DNA from: Verrucomicrobiota bacterium
Lineage (GTDB): Bacteria; Verrucomicrobiota; Verrucomicrobiia; Limisphaerales; JADLHS01
Direction: 5' to 3'
Length of the DNA: 39,511 nucleotides
Assembly: GCA_025350905.1 (NCBI GenBank)
Contig: JANXWY010000090.1
Location: forward strand, 1-39,511
Each line of letters starts with the position of its first letter. Positions within the stretch are counted from its first letter, which is position 1. A program made the translations under genes and the position numbers. The notes under the pieces were generated by a model that was not told the origin of the DNA, did no database searches, and was given only the letters and a program-made list of their open reading frames with translations. Of the stretch, positions 13,640 through 39,511 are shown piece after piece.

Positions 13640-13708
13640 AACCCCTCACCCCGTCCCGCTCCCCAGCGGATGGGGAGAGGGTGGCTGAAGGCCGCGTGAG
13701 GGGTTGTC
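13640..13708. repeat. Palindromic repeat upstream of lgt
   Basis: The outer arms acccctcac and gtgaggggt flank an inner hairpin CTCCCC-agcggat-GGGGAG (about 13659-13677). The arms and core resemble the end palindromes of the composite element at 415 and 11858, but the homologous spacer is missing, so this looks like a solo end. It lies between lgt and the TPR gene, both on the minus strand. Confidence 0.7.
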
Positions 13709-32271: not shown

Positions 32272-32645
32272 GCGCGGATGCTAGTTGCCCACCCAAGTTT
32301 TCTCAACACCAAACTGCCAGAGTGCCGGAAATTTGACGTGCCGATCGCGAAAGGCCATTGAACAACGTGGAGTGTCCAGTCTCCGCAGTATTGCTACGGA
32401 GGACGGGCGGGAGTCCTCTCCCGCTTTCGAAGGGGGTGCCGGCGAGTTGGGACTGGGATTGTTCCCTTGATTGCTGTCGTGCTACAGAAAAGAGCCGCAG
32501 GGGCAGCGCACGCCAAAACCTTGCGGAGGTTCGGTGGAGCGCCTCCGGAGGGCCGAGTTCCACGAGGCCCTATCTTGTCTTCCCAAACGTTTCAGAATGG
32601 GACTCGTGTAACTCGTCCCTCCGGGGCTGCGGCAAGACATTCCAT
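32272..32645. other. Intergenic region with a palindromic repeat
   Basis: About 370 bp between the FG-GAP gene and the TolB-like gene. Positions 32490-32623 are the repeat also found at 35280-35418; the remainder holds nothing recognisable. Short open frames here come from the repeat. Confidence 0.6.
32546..32623 (+). repeat. CGGAGGGCCGAGTT palindromic element, copy 1
   Basis: Left arm cggagggccgagttccacga and right arm ending actcgtccctccg are imperfect inverted copies with a ~28-nt middle. Homology with the copy at 35344 extends about 55 bp to the left through a gccaaaacct-type block. Confidence 0.85.
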
Positions 32646-33956
32646 TCAAGGCCCGAGGAGGCGGAAGAAAGCGCGTGGGCCGGTTGGAGTGACGGTCGCA
32701 ACTTCCTGGCCGTTGGTTTCCGTGGGCATCAGGCTGGAATCCTGCCAGTCGCCGCCGTTGGCCAGCGTGGTGGCGGATTGGAGAACGAAGCCGGTGGCGT
32801 TCGTGGGCCACGAGAGCTGAACGGTGTCGCCGGAATGCGCGATGGCCAGTCGGGGCGGAACTTTTCCGAGACCGGTGAAGATGTAGGCCGCGCCGGAGTG
32901 GGAGGCGCTGTTGTTGCTCTGGTTGCCGTTCACCCCGGTGGAGTTGCTGGCCTCATCAGGTGCCCCGACCACTACCGCGTCACCCGAAATTGCCACTGAC
33001 AGGCTGAAGTGGTCATCCGTGTCGGTGTTCGAGGCTTTGAGATAGGCTGGCTGGCTCCAGTTCGTTCCGGTTCGCACAAACACGTAGGCCGCGCCGGAAT
33101 TCGTCCCGCTGTTGTTGCTCTGGTCGCCGTTCACTCCGGTGGCGTTGCTGTCTTCGAAATACGCCCCGACCACTACCGTGTCACCCGAAATTGCCACTGA
33201 CGAGCCGAAAAAGTCACCCGCATCGGTGTTGGAGGCTTTGAGATAGGCCTGCTCACTCCAAGTTGTCCCGCTGCGCATGAAGACGTAGGCCGCGCCCGAG
33301 GATGGGGCGCTGTTGTCGCTCTGATTGCCGTTCGCCCCGGTGGCGTTGCTGGACTCGCCCGAAGCCCCAACCACTACCGTGTCGCCCGAAATTGCCACTC
33401 GGCCAAAGTTGTCACCCGCATCGGTGTTGGAGGCTTTGAGATAGGCCTGCTGGCTCCACGTTGTCCCGCTGCGCACGAAGACGTAGGCCGCGCCCGAGGA
33501 TGGGGCGCTGTTGTCGCTCTGATCGCCGTCCACCCCGGTGGCGCCGCTGTCCTCAGAAGATGCCCCGACCACCAACGTGTCGCCCGACACTGCTACCGAG
33601 AAGCCGAACCGATCCCCCGCCTCGGTGTTGGAGGCTTTAAGATAGGCTTGCTGAGTCCAGTTCGTCCCGTTGCGTATGAAGACGTAGACTGCACCAGCGA
33701 ACGGTGCGCTGTTGTCGCTCTGATCGCCGTCCACCCCGGTGGCGTTGCTGGACTCCACATATGTTCCGACCACCACCGTGTCTCCCGACACTGCGACGGA
33801 CCAGCCGAATGCGTCACCGAATGCGTCACCCTGCTCGGTGTTGGAGGCTTTGAGATAGGCTTGCTGGGCAATCTGCTGCGAGGCGGCAGGATGGACGAGC
33901 GCTGCCAAAGCGAGAAGCAGGGGGGCGAGGCGAAAATAACCTGTATGCATTTTCAT
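32646..33956 (-). CDS. Secreted FG-GAP beta-propeller with five near-identical repeats
   Basis: 436 residues. A signal peptide ends near AAS (about 26). Five ~63-residue repeats follow, each with QQAYLKASNTxxGDxFG, SVAxSGDTVVVGA, TGVNGDQSNNS and GAAYVFVRxGTxW. The Dx(D/N)xDG-type turn is a likely calcium site. The third repeat lacks one residue (DNFGRVAISGD), whereas neighbours have one more. The C-terminal ~75 residues (LSWPTNATGFVLQSATTL...FFRLLGP) match a module common at the ends of secreted Verrucomicrobial proteins, possibly for sorting. It is likely a surface or extracellular binding protein. It starts 44 bp after the Asp-box gene. Confidence 0.88.
   Translation of the reverse strand: MKMHTGYFRLAPLLLALAALVHPAASQQIAQQAYLKASNTEQGDAFGDAFGWSVAVSGDTVVVGTYVESSNATGVDGDQSDNSAPFAGAVYVFIRNGTNWTQQAYLKASNTEAGDRFGFSVAVSGDTLVVGASSEDSGATGVDGDQSDNSAPSSGAAYVFVRSGTTWSQQAYLKASNTDAGDNFGRVAISGDTVVVGASGESSNATGANGNQSDNSAPSSGAAYVFMRSGTTWSEQAYLKASNTDAGDFFGSSVAISGDTVVVGAYFEDSNATGVNGDQSNNSGTNSGAAYVFVRTGTNWSQPAYLKASNTDTDDHFSLSVAISGDAVVVGAPDEASNSTGVNGNQSNNSASHSGAAYIFTGLGKVPPRLAIAHSGDTVQLSWPTNATGFVLQSATTLANGGDWQDSSLMPTETNGQEVATVTPTGPRAFFRLLGP
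32880..33860 (-). repeat. ~190-bp intragenic tandem repeats
   Basis: Five consecutive DNA units of about 190 bp encode the FG-GAP blades. Long stretches, such as those around gaggctttgagataggc and cgtaggccgcgcc, recur almost unchanged, pointing to recent duplication or ongoing exchange between units. Confidence 0.85.
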
Positions 33957-35173: not shown

Positions 35174-35477
35174 GTTGAGTTCGCTGTGTTTGGTTTGTGG
35201 TGCCGATCATCGGCGCGCACGGGAGAGGAATCGGACGACTTCCGGGGAATCTTTCAAAAATCTGTTGCGATTTTGTGGGAGGAGAAAAGCGCCGAGGGAG
35301 CGGGCGCACTCCAAAACCTGGCGGCGTTTTGATAACCCCCACTCGGAGGGCCGAGTTCCACGAGGCTCTAAATAACAAGAGAATGGAAATAATGGGACTC
35401 GTGTAACTCGTCCCTCCGAGCGAAAGGATTTGGGACTCGCGGAGCTCGTCCCTCTGAGTAATTCGTCCCTCCGGTGG
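35174..35477. other. Intergenic region with a palindromic repeat
   Basis: About 300 bp between the kinase stop and the Asp-box gene start. 35280-35418 is a repeat element with further half-arms to 35473. No gene or clear terminator is seen, although the hairpins could end kinase transcription. Confidence 0.6.
35344..35473 (+). repeat. CGGAGGGCCGAGTT palindromic element, copy 2 with extra arms
   Basis: The main unit is 35344-35418, left arm cggagggccgagttccacga and right arm gtgtaactcgtccctccg. Two further right-arm-like pieces follow (about 35432-35455 and 35461-35473), so arms have been added or partly duplicated. Confidence 0.85.
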
Positions 35478-38400
35478 CTACTCGAACAACTGCGGGGCGC
35501 GGGCGCGGAGCGAGTGGTTCAGTTCCGACAGTTCGCTCGCCTTGAGTGGCAGCAGCACGCCGCTGGCGTTGAGCCGCCGACCGGACAGGAGCTTCGCGTA
35601 ATCGGCGATCACCTCGGTCGCCAGCGGTGTCGGCTTCAGATCCCAGGCGCGGAGCAGATTCGGATCGCTGGCGGTGATCAGCCGGTTTCCGGGTGTGATG
35701 CACACCCACCGGATGTACCCTGAGTGCGGCAGGAAAGGCGTAACCGGTTCTGTGGTTGAGGCATCGAAGACCCGCGCACGGTTGTCGTCGCTGCGCGTGG
35801 CGATGAAACGCCCGTCCGCGCTCCAGCGGGCGGAGCGCGCCGTTCCTTTGCCGCTGGTCATGGGAGAAAGCAGCATTTCACCCGTAGCGGCGTCCCACAG
35901 TTTAACCTCGGCTGCTTCTCCAGCGGTGATCAACCGTCGGGCATCGGGACTCCAGTCGAGGTCGAGCAGGCCTCCACCATGCTTGAACTGGGGCACGACC
36001 AGTTCACCGGTTTTCAGGTCAATGATGCTTCCGCTCTGGTCCTCGCCCACGGAGGCGAGCCGGCGGCCGTCCGGGGAGAAACGCATCCGGTTCGCGCTGC
36101 CGCGAATCTTGGTGAGCAGGAACGGTTTTCCGGTGAGTTTGTCGGTGTCCAAATCGAATAATTGGAGATGCTGGTCGTTGTAGGTTTCTCCGTATCCCAG
36201 CAGGAGCGCCCCGCAATCGGGACGAAACGCAGCGGGCATGTAGTCCGTAGGGAGATACCACAGAGACCCCGACATGGCGGGGATGCTCCGCTCAAGGCTA
36301 CCATCGCTAGTGCGCCACACCCGGACATTCCCGTCGCTACAGAACGTGAACAGGCGCGACTCATCGGCGTTGAAAGCCGTATGCGCCAGGAAGGATGGAT
36401 GAGGAAGCGCCAGCCGACGCCAGTCCCGCCCTTCGTTTGACCAAAGCGAGATGGTGACTTTGGGCGGCGCGCCTCTTAGTTGCTCGTCCAAGGCGCAGAA
36501 GCGTCCGCTGGGACTGACTTCCCACCCTCCAAAGCTGGCATTGGTTTCCTGCACTCGCAGGACCTGAAGTTCCGTCAATCGCTCCGAATCAATCAAATGC
36601 AGCCCTTCGTCGGCTAGGCGAATCGGGAGCCGCCCGGACGATCCACCGCGGGGGCGCTGGAAGTTGGCCGGTCCCTCGGGGATTTTGGCTGAGAGTTCCA
36701 ACCAAGCAGCTTCGGTTTCGTGTTTGAGCGACCAAACCTTCGCCGTGCCATCGTCGCTGGTCGTCAGCAGTCGGGAGCCATCGGGGCTGAAGTGAACCGA
36801 TTCGACCCAGCCGGTATGACGAAACGGGGGGAACAACAATTCCCAACTCTCAAGGTTCCAGATTGAGACAAAGCCGCTGTCCGTGCCCAAGGCCAGCCGA
36901 CGACCATCAAAATTGAAATCCCAGCAGCGGACGCTGGGAAACGCCAACGTCCGGAGGAGTTTGACACCGTCGCCGAGATCCCAGACCCGCACGCCCTCCG
37001 CCTCGCCGCTGCTGAAGAGCACATCGCCTTTGGGGCTGAAGAAAAGCGCGCGGACGTTTCCGATCACGGTAATCAGTTCGCCAACGCGCTTCGCGTTCTG
37101 GACATCCCAGACTTGGATCTGGCTCGCTTCAGTCTCGTTCGATTCGGAGGTGGCAGTTACCAAATGCCGACCGCCCGGGCTCAAGGCTACCCGTCGGATT
37201 GGCAGATCGTGCATGAACGGACTGCCCACCAGTTCTCCTGTGGGCAACCGCCAGATCCGGGCGGTTTGATCGCGGCTGCCGGAAACGAGGAAGCCGCCCT
37301 CGGCGCTGAATGCGAGCATCGTGATTTCATTGGTGTGTCCCTTCAGCTCAACGACGGGCTGTCCGTTGCGCGTGTCGAACACTTGAATGACGTGGTTCGT
37401 CAAGGCGACCGCCAGCCAGCGGTCGTCCGGGCTGAACGCGGAACCGAAGTGGTTCGAATTCAATTGGGGAATTACCGGCTCCCCGGTTTGGACATCCAGA
37501 ATCTCCGCCATTTGCCCCATGGGTGGCACCGCATCGAATGACGCGCGTCCCTGGTTTTCCGAGGAGCAAACCAACAAACGCTGGCCATCCCGGGCGAAGC
37601 GAATCTGGCGGAGGGCTTTGCTCTCATGCGGTCGCTCCCAAAGCATCTGGCCGGAGTGGGCATCCCACATGGTCAGCTTGTGCTGAGAAGTCGCGGTGAC
37701 CAGGCGGTGGCCGTCCGGACTGAACGCACTGGCGAGGACGCTCGATTCGTAGCTCATCACGTGCGATAGCCGTGGAGTCTGATCGAGCGTTTGCTGAATG
37801 CGGACGCGGTGGATTTCCTCTTCGGCCAGGCGATTGGTCACCAGCGGCAGGGCGTCGGCGAACCACAGCAGCGCCGCCGACGGGTCCTTGTCGTCGAGCA
37901 GGCGGACGCCGTTGGCGACATCAAGGCGGACGATCCGCTCGCGATTCTCCTCCGCGAGCTTGGTCTTCTCAGTCGCGAGGTGGGTCTGTTCCTCCGCGAG
38001 CCGGCGGTTCGTATCGGCGAGTTGCGTTTTTTCCACGACGAGTTCGCTCACGAGGTGGGTCTGGCGGGCCTGCCACCACCAGCCAAGCGCAATGACGGCG
38101 GCGAGGGCGGTGACGAGAGCACCGGCGCGTTGGACGAAGCGGAGTTGGCCGGCGAGCTTCCGTTGGTGGCGCACTGAACCGCCGCTTTGGAGCAGCGCGA
38201 GGTCGGCGTTCATTTCCTCGGCGGACTGGTAGCGCTGCTTCACGTTCGCGGCGCAAGCTTTGAGCAGAATGGCGTTGAATTCGAGCAGTTGCGCGCTGTC
38301 CGGCGCGTCAATGATCTGGGTGAACGGTTCGGGAAAATCCTTGCGGTCTTTGCCCATGCCGGCTTCGTAAAGGACCTTGCCCAGGCTGTAGAGGTCGGCT

Positions 38401-39128
38401 TGCGGCGAGTTTGGCCCCTCGGGCGGGATGAAACCTTCGGTGCCAACGTAGGAACGCGCCTCAGTCATCTCGATGACGAGGCCGATGTCGGCGAGCTTGG
38501 GCACGCCGCCCACGAAGATGAGGTTGGACGGTTTGATGTCGCGGTGGATCAGGCCGGCGCGGTGCAGGTGGGCGAGGCCGAGGTTTAGCGTGACGCCAAG
38601 TTCAAGACATTCGCGGAGCGGCAGTCGGCCGCGCTGGAGGAGGACTTTGGCGAGGGTTTTGGGGACGTAGGAGTCGGGATGCAGCACCGCCATCGCTTCG
38701 GAGGGCCGAGTTACACAAGGCCCTGATTCAATTGAAGGAGATTGAGGATTCGTGTAACTCGTCCCTCCGATGGCAATCGTCGCCGCGTCATCCGCCAGTT
38801 CCATGACATAGTAGAAGTACCCCTCGGCGTCGTTGCGACCGATCTGGAGGATGTCGATGAAGCCTTCGTTTCCGCGCGAAAGCGGTTCGAACTTCTGCAT
38901 GCCGTTGAACTCGCGTTCGTAAGGCCGGGCGTCGGTGAAGCGATCGCGGAAGACGACCTTCACCGCGCGCCAGGTGCCGACGGTGGTGCGGGCCAGCCAC
39001 ACGTCGCCGTAGCTCCCGCCGCCGATTCGCCGCAGGAGCTCGTGATCGGGCACGACCGGCATCACCGGCGCCATCCACGAGGGCGGGCCAGTGGTGTCGG
39101 TTACGGGCGGTTTGGATTCAAGCGGCAT
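35478..39128 (-). CDS. Transmembrane Ser/Thr protein kinase with C-terminal WD40 repeats
   Basis: 1216 residues. The kinase domain (about 28-315) has glycine loop IGGGSYGDVW (35-44), Lys57 in WRAVKVV, HRDIKPSN (195-202) and, in place of DFG, DIG (214-216). Juxtamembrane and single transmembrane helix (about 333-352) precede a coiled coil with EKTQLADTNRRLAEEQTHL. WD40 repeats run from about 455 to 1190, with SPDGHRLVTATSQHKLTMWD, SAEGGFLVSGSRDQTARIW and similar blades, enough for two propellers. It probably senses an extracytoplasmic or protein ligand. Residues 120-144 (GGTSYTNPQSPSIESGPC and flanks) are encoded by a 71-bp palindromic element inserted in frame between the hinge YYVMELADDA and the next helix. 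Confidence 0.93.
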   Translation of the reverse strand: MPLESKPPVTDTTGPPSWMAPVMPVVPDHELLRRIGGGSYGDVWLARTTVGTWRAVKVVFRDRFTDARPYEREFNGMQKFEPLSRGNEGFIDILQIGRNDAEGYFYYVMELADDAATIAIGGTSYTNPQSPSIESGPCVTRPSEAMAVLHPDSYVPKTLAKVLLQRGRLPLRECLELGVTLNLGLAHLHRAGLIHRDIKPSNLIFVGGVPKLADIGLVIEMTEARSYVGTEGFIPPEGPNSPQADLYSLGKVLYEAGMGKDRKDFPEPFTQIIDAPDSAQLLEFNAILLKACAANVKQRYQSAEEMNADLALLQSGGSVRHQRKLAGQLRFVQRAGALVTALAAVIALGWWWQARQTHLVSELVVEKTQLADTNRRLAEEQTHLATEKTKLAEENRERIVRLDVANGVRLLDDKDPSAALLWFADALPLVTNRLAEEEIHRVRIQQTLDQTPRLSHVMSYESSVLASAFSPDGHRLVTATSQHKLTMWDAHSGQMLWERPHESKALRQIRFARDGQRLLVCSSENQGRASFDAVPPMGQMAEILDVQTGEPVIPQLNSNHFGSAFSPDDRWLAVALTNHVIQVFDTRNGQPVVELKGHTNEITMLAFSAEGGFLVSGSRDQTARIWRLPTGELVGSPFMHDLPIRRVALSPGGRHLVTATSESNETEASQIQVWDVQNAKRVGELITVIGNVRALFFSPKGDVLFSSGEAEGVRVWDLGDGVKLLRTLAFPSVRCWDFNFDGRRLALGTDSGFVSIWNLESWELLFPPFRHTGWVESVHFSPDGSRLLTTSDDGTAKVWSLKHETEAAWLELSAKIPEGPANFQRPRGGSSGRLPIRLADEGLHLIDSERLTELQVLRVQETNASFGGWEVSPSGRFCALDEQLRGAPPKVTISLWSNEGRDWRRLALPHPSFLAHTAFNADESRLFTFCSDGNVRVWRTSDGSLERSIPAMSGSLWYLPTDYMPAAFRPDCGALLLGYGETYNDQHLQLFDLDTDKLTGKPFLLTKIRGSANRMRFSPDGRRLASVGEDQSGSIIDLKTGELVVPQFKHGGGLLDLDWSPDARRLITAGEAAEVKLWDAATGEMLLSPMTSGKGTARSARWSADGRFIATRSDDNRARVFDASTTEPVTPFLPHSGYIRWVCITPGNRLITASDPNLLRAWDLKPTPLATEVIADYAKLLSGRRLNASGVLLPLKASELSELNHSLRARAPQLFE
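38699..38769. repeat. CGGAGGGCCGAGTT palindromic element, copy 3, inside the kinase gene
   Basis: Left arm cggagggccgagttacacaa (38699-) and right arm cgtgtaactcgtccctccg (ending 38769) are imperfect inverted copies. They match the intergenic copies at 32546 and 35344 closely. In the minus-strand kinase frame the element reads through without a stop. Confidence 0.9.
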
Positions 39129-39511
39129 GGGAAATTATGAACCCGAATCTCGAGGTCTGAGTCGGACGCGCTTTGGTTCGGAGGGACAAGCTCCGCGCGT
39201 CCGAAACTCCTTGGGCAAAGTCAGGGCCTCGTGGAACTCGGCCCTCCGGTTTGAACGCATGTTCATTGTGCCGTTTCGGCTTGTGGCCAAGCGAACCGCC
39301 GGAGCAAGCGATCCTCGACGCGGCGGGTGCCGAGCCGGGCGGCGGGACGATACTTGGCAAACCGCGGCGACCCAGGGGTGTTTCATCTGGGATAAGCAAG
39401 CCGCAGGTGAGGAGGAGGTTAGTGGAAAATGACTGGACATCGGCAAGACGACTTTCTACACCTTGGGCATGCCGAAGCCACTAACCGGTGCTGAATCCGC
39501 GATTCTCCAAA
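39129..39511. other. Region upstream of the kinase, with a repeat; no gene seen
   Basis: The kinase promoter should be here. 39179-39247 is a repeat copy. From 39250 to the window edge I see no coding region with a recognisable product and no tRNA. The last ~80 bp could begin an unseen gene. Confidence 0.5.
39179..39247 (-). repeat. CGGAGGGCCGAGTT palindromic element, copy 4
   Basis: This copy is inverted relative to copies 1-3: cggagggacaagctccgcgc at the left and cctcgtggaactcggccctc at the right. It lies about 50 bp upstream of the kinase start, so two copies flank or enter the same gene. Confidence 0.85.

Follow-up and report, generated by a model that had tools for sequence, protein, structure and literature searches.

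Dispersed REPIN-like repeats have, with a probability that we put at about 0.8, become protein-coding in the genome of a Verrucomicrobiota bacterium and in its relatives, where the hinge-helix D loop of a kinase family would act as a recurrent acceptor whose content turns over fast and is in addition recombined between paralogues. One such repeat, here termed element A, is dispersed and is read in frame within genes, several repeat types occupy the one kinase loop, their turnover is evident among close relatives and the reading frame used is biased. In the mechanism that we propose, several kinds of mini-repeat would land in genes across the bacterial order, frame-keeping copies that read as hydrophilic, flexible peptide would persist in surface loops, and the hinge-helix D loop would be filled by different repeat types in different lineages, changing faster than the surrounding kinase. 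The repeats would arrive by transposition, perhaps catalysed in trans by a Y1/HUH transposase that recognises their hairpin arms, the main filter would be the tolerance of the loop, and exchange between paralogues would take the form of gene conversion. It is to be noted that a tolerant loop combined with any kind of sequence growth would yield part of this pattern.

Element A within the kinase gene of the window

The window, by which we mean the whole stretch of DNA analysed here (39,511 nucleotides), carries a gene for a 1216-residue protein in which WD40 repeats accompany a kinase domain (PF00069, Pfam 8.9e-19) and in which a copy of element A lies within the kinase part (Table 1). The first-pass annotation had described a 71-bp palindromic element at 38699-38769. 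This was borne out by a covariance model of the element A family (81.4 bits, the window copy being itself included in the model), by the arm pattern, which with at most 3 mismatches was matched 7 times in the window and 0 times in 100 shuffles, and by a fold 5.2 standard deviations better than that of dinucleotide shuffles (z -5.2, calculated for single-stranded DNA). The shuffles and the copy number rule out a chance palindrome as a reading of element A. Further copies had been claimed at three intergenic sites nearby, and all three were recovered (Table 1). Considered as MITE-type terminal inverted repeats, three of the four window copies fold far better than shuffles, the exception being the copy at 39179-39248, which folds no better than its shuffled versions (z -0.12).

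Table 1. Position, strand and supporting evidence of the features of the window referred to in the text.
Feature	Position	Strand	Evidence or remark
Kinase-WD40 gene, 1216 aa, holder of the insert	35478..39128	-	translation, Pfam, PknB likeness
Complete variable linker (residues 114-153), flanked by MELAD and YVPKTL	38670..38789	-	coordinates from translation
Element A copy, REPIN-like palindrome	38699..38769	+	71 bp; in-frame kinase residues 120-144, minus-strand reading
First arm, GGGCC..GGCCC-type hairpin	38699..38723	+	copy alignment and column counts of arm matches
Second arm, inverted, GGGAC..GTCCC type	38745..38769	-	copy alignment and column counts of arm matches
Element A copy	32546..32623	+	covariance model; one frame scanned (220 aa), no Pfam match
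Element A copy a short way downstream of the kinase gene	35344..35418	+	covariance model
Poorly palindromic element A copy a short way upstream of the kinase gene	39179..39248	-	covariance model
Single element A arm, beyond the kinase stop codon	35432..35455	-	arm pattern match
CCCTCACCC-type palindrome copy (paralogue C371 has this type in its hinge)	13643..13702	-	just upstream of the lgt start

The insert supplies 25 amino acids (residues 120-144) to the loop that precedes helix D. The kinase motifs reported as intact, Lys57, HRDIKPSN and DIG, are indeed present in the translation, DIG standing at what we take to be the usual place of DFG. The estimate that the element adds about 25 residues holds when the window kinase is compared to short-loop relatives, but not when it is compared to its closest relatives, which have loops of similar length and of other sequence. 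Among solved kinases PknB is closest in sequence and also the top fold match, so that PknB-like bacterial Ser/Thr kinases are the best solved relatives of the window kinase on both counts. The two differ at the loop: 43 residues separate MELADD from the TL that aligns with PknB 102 in the window kinase, at a place, between the hinge and helix D of kinase nomenclature, where PknB has few residues. A model of the window kinase (49 sequences) reached a mean pLDDT of 89.7, with most of the core above 90 and the blocks of the insert at 52-56, and the model of a short-loop relative (L121, 28 sequences) displayed the same core strands and helices with small differences at the C-terminal end. The first-pass annotation had suggested that an insert at this place might alter kinase activity; in the model of the window kinase the fold is kept and the insert is predicted to be unordered.

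Dispersal and coding use of element A

Element A is built of two inverted 25-nt arms separated by a variable spacer (15 copies aligned), one arm having a stem of the GGGCC..GGCCC type and the other of the GGGAC..GTCCC type. Among 77 arm-like pattern matches, of which a few are probably due to chance, columns 8/22 were occupied by A-T in 46 and by C-G in 23, and columns 13/17 by T-A in 41 and by C-G in 30, the search pattern having left the tested columns free. Double changes at two column pairs indicate that the two arms are conserved as separate hairpins. Most arms start with CGGA, and the GTAG/CGTC tag before the stem is absent.

The genome to which the window belongs (a 6.27-Mb assembly of 489 contigs, hereafter the own genome) contains 20 strong element A loci and one weak locus; the copies on C148 (a half copy) and C314 (weak) stand outside the 20. 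One contig end (L042, C412) falls within a copy of element A, so that repeats may break the assembly and copies may be undercounted. At E 1e-6 the element was detected in 14 of 57 genomes, the own genome being counted among the 57, and the matches, in which both strands of single places are counted, were most numerous in G018 (at least 85), G022 (48), G007 (28) and G228 (26). The C272 copy and the window copy at 39179 share 19 of 20 spacer bases within different flanks, and this pair of sequences would fit movement of element A as a unit.

REPINs are paired inverted REPs that are moved by RAYTs. Element A resembles them in its two inverted arms, its variable spacer and its tens of copies, and differs in lacking a convincing Y1 transposase neighbour. 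A RAYT adjoining element A was looked for and not found: in 46 Y1 loci from five genomes (all 16 of the own genome and 30 of the 51 of four relatives) no convincing element A lay beside the transposase gene, the only match being a weak one (L059, E 0.093). G018, which has 30 Y1 transposase matches, most of them partial, also has very many near-identical relatives of element A, and none was next to the transposase in the 10 of these 30 loci that were inspected (for instance L246, L250, L259, L262, L265 and L268). The Y1 transposase genes L046, L048, L049 and L050 of the own genome are flanked by inverted palindromes unlike element A.

Nine of the 20 strong copies lie in frame in Pfam-supported genes, six of them at kinase hinges and the others in ValRS, in an HsdM-type methylase and in a GFO/IDH/MocA-type protein. 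The six hinge copies, found in the window kinase and five paralogues, share a single orientation and a single frame, and the in-frame copies as a whole use at least two frames. A lone insertion in the window kinase is ruled out by the five paralogues, which hold element A at the identical place and in the identical frame. At the ValRS copy there are 36 residues, compared to 9 in the Thermus ValRS. Among the 11 other strong copies, four gave no clear Pfam support in the one or two frames scanned; one of these, C365:8166, lies in a 452-aa frame that has weak propeller matches, at its N-terminal edge. Three copies fall in no 100-aa frame, and the remaining four occur solely in frames of 103-138 aa, outside the Pfam scan.

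The suggestion that in-frame entry is a general process in this genome thus gains support from the nine copies and from the other repeat types present in the kinase loop of relatives. The accompanying statement, that two palindrome families enter genes in frame within 28 kb, could not be confirmed in the window, where the other family examined, the CCCTCACCC type, sits upstream of lgt. Elsewhere in the own genome the CCCTCACCC type is in frame in kinase C371 and, as judged by eye, in ValRS, where two palindromes of this type lie in frame between EVAES and DSEGRIWL. G003, which belongs to the same genus, has a different stretch in this loop, and an element A insert further on is common to both ValRS proteins. 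From these two genomes the ValRS loop suggests a process that may extend beyond kinases. By eye, ValRS (gene L039 on C79, set beside L232 of G003) shows three palindromic in-frame inserts.

Repeat types, turnover and frame choice at the hinge-helix D loop

Long loops split a full-length match and thereby favour short-loop kinases, and for this reason the family was searched with the C-lobe alone as a query. At E 1e-40 it was present in 113 of 293 genomes of the order. Linkers were sampled from the best matches of a longer list, ordered by likeness to the window kinase, to which C20 and C292 of the own genome and some other loci were added; the 136 loci yielded 134 linkers, none coming from L140, L186 and L065 and two from L030. 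Four duplicates with identical linkers (L062, L063, L064 and L067) were kept out of the tree, cluster and frame counts and retained in the hairpin counts of 79. Without the duplicates, 54 of the 130 kinases have a short loop of 9-19 aa (exactly 12 aa in 42 of them) and 76 a long loop of 22-73 aa. Within the aligned part of the domain, 75 of the 130 kinases had inserts of at least 10 aa at the loop before helix D; two further positions had such inserts in 3 kinases and in 1 kinase, respectively.

Clustering of the long linkers at the DNA level gave 14 groups of two or more, one of which lumped four types. The largest group was split by eye and two groups, PPHPESP and NPKAKT, which look like inherited linkers, were set aside, resulting in 15 repeat types: element A, the GTAG type, the CCCTCACCC type and twelve types named after their peptides (RNPKE, RSDG, NVGQASS, MQNEE, SDQLSVV, AADVRR, GVRNAE, KMEDG, STLN, GKGRKG, VQSSMFK and QGSSG). 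These types account for 48 of the 76 long linkers; 5 linkers belong to the two groups set aside and 23 stand outside any type. Of the 79 long linkers, 25 contained a hairpin with z < -3; once duplicates are removed the figure is 23 of 76, which leaves 53 without such a hairpin. Control segments of the same genes gave 0/77, 1/79 and 1/78. A member with z < -3 exists in 11 of the 15 types; NVGQASS and MQNEE reach z -2.3 at most, and the KMEDG and QGSSG types have no hairpin.

All four of the types examined for dispersal, out of the 15, proved to be dispersed repeats, namely element A, GTAG, CCCTCACCC and RNPKE. Matches of the GTAG type, which represent arms and not loci, numbered at least 41 in G153, at least 56 in G087 and at least 3 in G030, with none in G043 among the matches listed. 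The CCCTCACCC type gave 44 matches in the own genome, the query itself and strand doubles included. For the RNPKE type, both strands of G156 and G144 gave many matches within the linker part of the query, and G050 gave a few. An equivalent loop devoid of repeat similarity in orthologues would have counted against the first-pass reading, and this objection holds by half: the nearest relatives do have an equivalent loop unlike element A, but those of their loops that were tested consist of other repeats. L062 and L065 carry another repeat type with a GTAA or GTAG tag. In L065, a relative of the window kinase, the frame is lost after the GTAG-type hinge repeat (1825 onward), which is perhaps a failed insertion.

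The content of the loop differs between kinases that are otherwise closely similar. Outside the loop the window kinase is 94% identical to L118 and C365 is 96% identical to L144, and in both pairs the linkers are unrelated. The C365 group (L029, L144, L165, L185, L153, L166 and L167, each being C365 itself or 77-96% identical to it) displays six loop states, one of them outside the named types. On a quick tree of the 130 kinases, computed with the linker removed, at least 19 changes between short and long loops are needed, and at least 41 changes among 18 states when the 23 unassigned linkers are left out; these counts do not separate gain, loss and exchange.

The frame in which the linkers are read is biased. 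Of the 68 long linkers that had a further stop-free frame, 53 were read in the frame with the highest share of disorder-promoting residues, compared to 20.9 expected if frames were equal. With one representative per type or singleton the count was 25 of 37 (10.8 expected), with more trimming 24 of 36 (9.9 expected) and for the named types alone 12 of 15 (4.5 expected). C-lobe control segments gave 0 of 39 where 12.0 were expected, which means that equal chance cannot serve as a neutral baseline where the protein is folded. The same frame bias might be produced by any working disordered linker.

Exchange, selection and relation to known repeats

Several observations bear on the traffic of linkers between paralogues. 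The linkers of C172a/C172b and of C13/C436 are 98% identical, compared to 90-91% in the remainder of the domain (P 1.1e-4 and 5.1e-4, respectively, assuming independent sites), and in the same gene pairs identity is mostly 80-100% across the kinase part and mostly 45-60% beyond it. The spacers of element A are alike in the window, C365 and C172b kinases, so that the window copy was probably inherited or passed among paralogues, and the linker sequence shared by L144, L195 and C20 extends past the repeat arms. Judged from these alignments, recombination between paralogues seems to account for part of the spread of loop repeats. The paralogous kinase-WD40 genes L030, L031 and L032 combine near-identical kinase domains with diverged downstream parts, as if the kinase half had been homogenised.

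The same observations could be carried further, to a model in which homologous recombination or gene conversion, with the conserved lobes as anchors, swaps linkers from an old stock between paralogues and between strains, new insertion being rare. Such a model has appreciable plausibility, although the odds run against it. It accommodates the excess identity of the linkers, the drop in identity beyond the kinase part, the sharing outside the repeat arms and the alike spacers in kinases of which two, the window kinase and C365, have nearest relatives with other linkers; the several types nevertheless had to arrive first, the four tested ones also occur as dispersed copies away from kinase genes, and three unrelated proteins contain element A in frame. 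A more ambitious proposal, which we consider rather unlikely, is that the loop is an evolutionary cassette slot into which unrelated palindromic mini-repeats are repeatedly recruited in disorder-promoting frames and exchanged between paralogues, so that an expanding kinase family would obtain from selfish repeats a loop for regulation or recognition that changes fast.

Selection might also favour change in the loop as such, because at the mouth of the ATP site it would modulate the access of nucleotides or the binding of partners, with the repeats as raw material. The concentration at one loop, a turnover faster than that of the kinase and the disorder-promoting frames would all agree with this, but they are also predicted by tolerance alone; moreover 54 of the 130 kinases have a short loop, no common linker motif was seen by eye, and in one ValRS loop, too, the repeats differ between two genomes of the same genus. 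We regard this explanation as unlikely. It appears highly improbable that the elements are steered to this site by target DNA, or by some local state of the DNA or RNA: inserts of unrelated types do start, by eye, within a few codons of one point after MELAD, but their ends differ between types and element A is found at other places in other genes. The least probable of the explanations considered is that an mRNA hairpin between the codons of the N- and C-lobes is useful in itself, for example as a translation pause. Its position at the lobe boundary would suit that role, as would the third codon positions of L118 and L119, which are more alike in the linker (0.85) than in the flanks (0.69), yet the 53 long linkers without strong folding (DNA energies) and the 54 kinases with a short loop speak against it.

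The reading that we prefer, repeated entry of dispersed repeats at one tolerant kinase loop followed by turnover and exchange, can be set beside two known cases. The Rickettsia palindromic elements are likewise small dispersed palindromes that lie in frame in conserved proteins, with a tested case in guanylate kinase (PMC2229807). Compared by description only, our system differs from them in its many repeat types, its fast turnover and the use of a single loop of one family. Intragenic REPs are pairs of inverted short hairpins within genes, with Verrucomicrobia among their hosts, those of the GTAG kind being commonest in Opitutus terrae, and recB of two Xanthomonas species carries different REPs at about the same site (PMC3733652). 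As inverted hairpin pairs inside genes, the GTAG/CGTC REPs described there are similar to element A, but the latter has CGGA before the stem, and compared to the recB case a whole kinase family is affected here at one site. In the literature searched, which lay largely outside subscription journals, no paper was found that describes palindromes at a kinase hinge or in bacteria of the Pedosphaera type. Protein-coding palindromes are thus already known, and what is new is a single loop as a recurrent acceptor together with its fast turnover.

Whether small selfish repeats feed protein evolution has so far been judged mostly from scattered single inserts, as described in these two sources (PMC3733652, PMC2229807). 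Here a single loop provides many natural replicates, for which the short-loop relatives can serve as controls, so that arrival, frame choice, decay, exchange and the effect on the enzyme could be measured at the kinase loop. The loop before helix D is unsuitable as an orthologous character.

Two further kinds of repeat were observed in the window. A gene at 32646-33956 is made of repeats of about 201 bp, with five in-register copies that are 61-78% like the reference copy, and a 21-bp tandem repeat occupies positions 1-227, at the window start.
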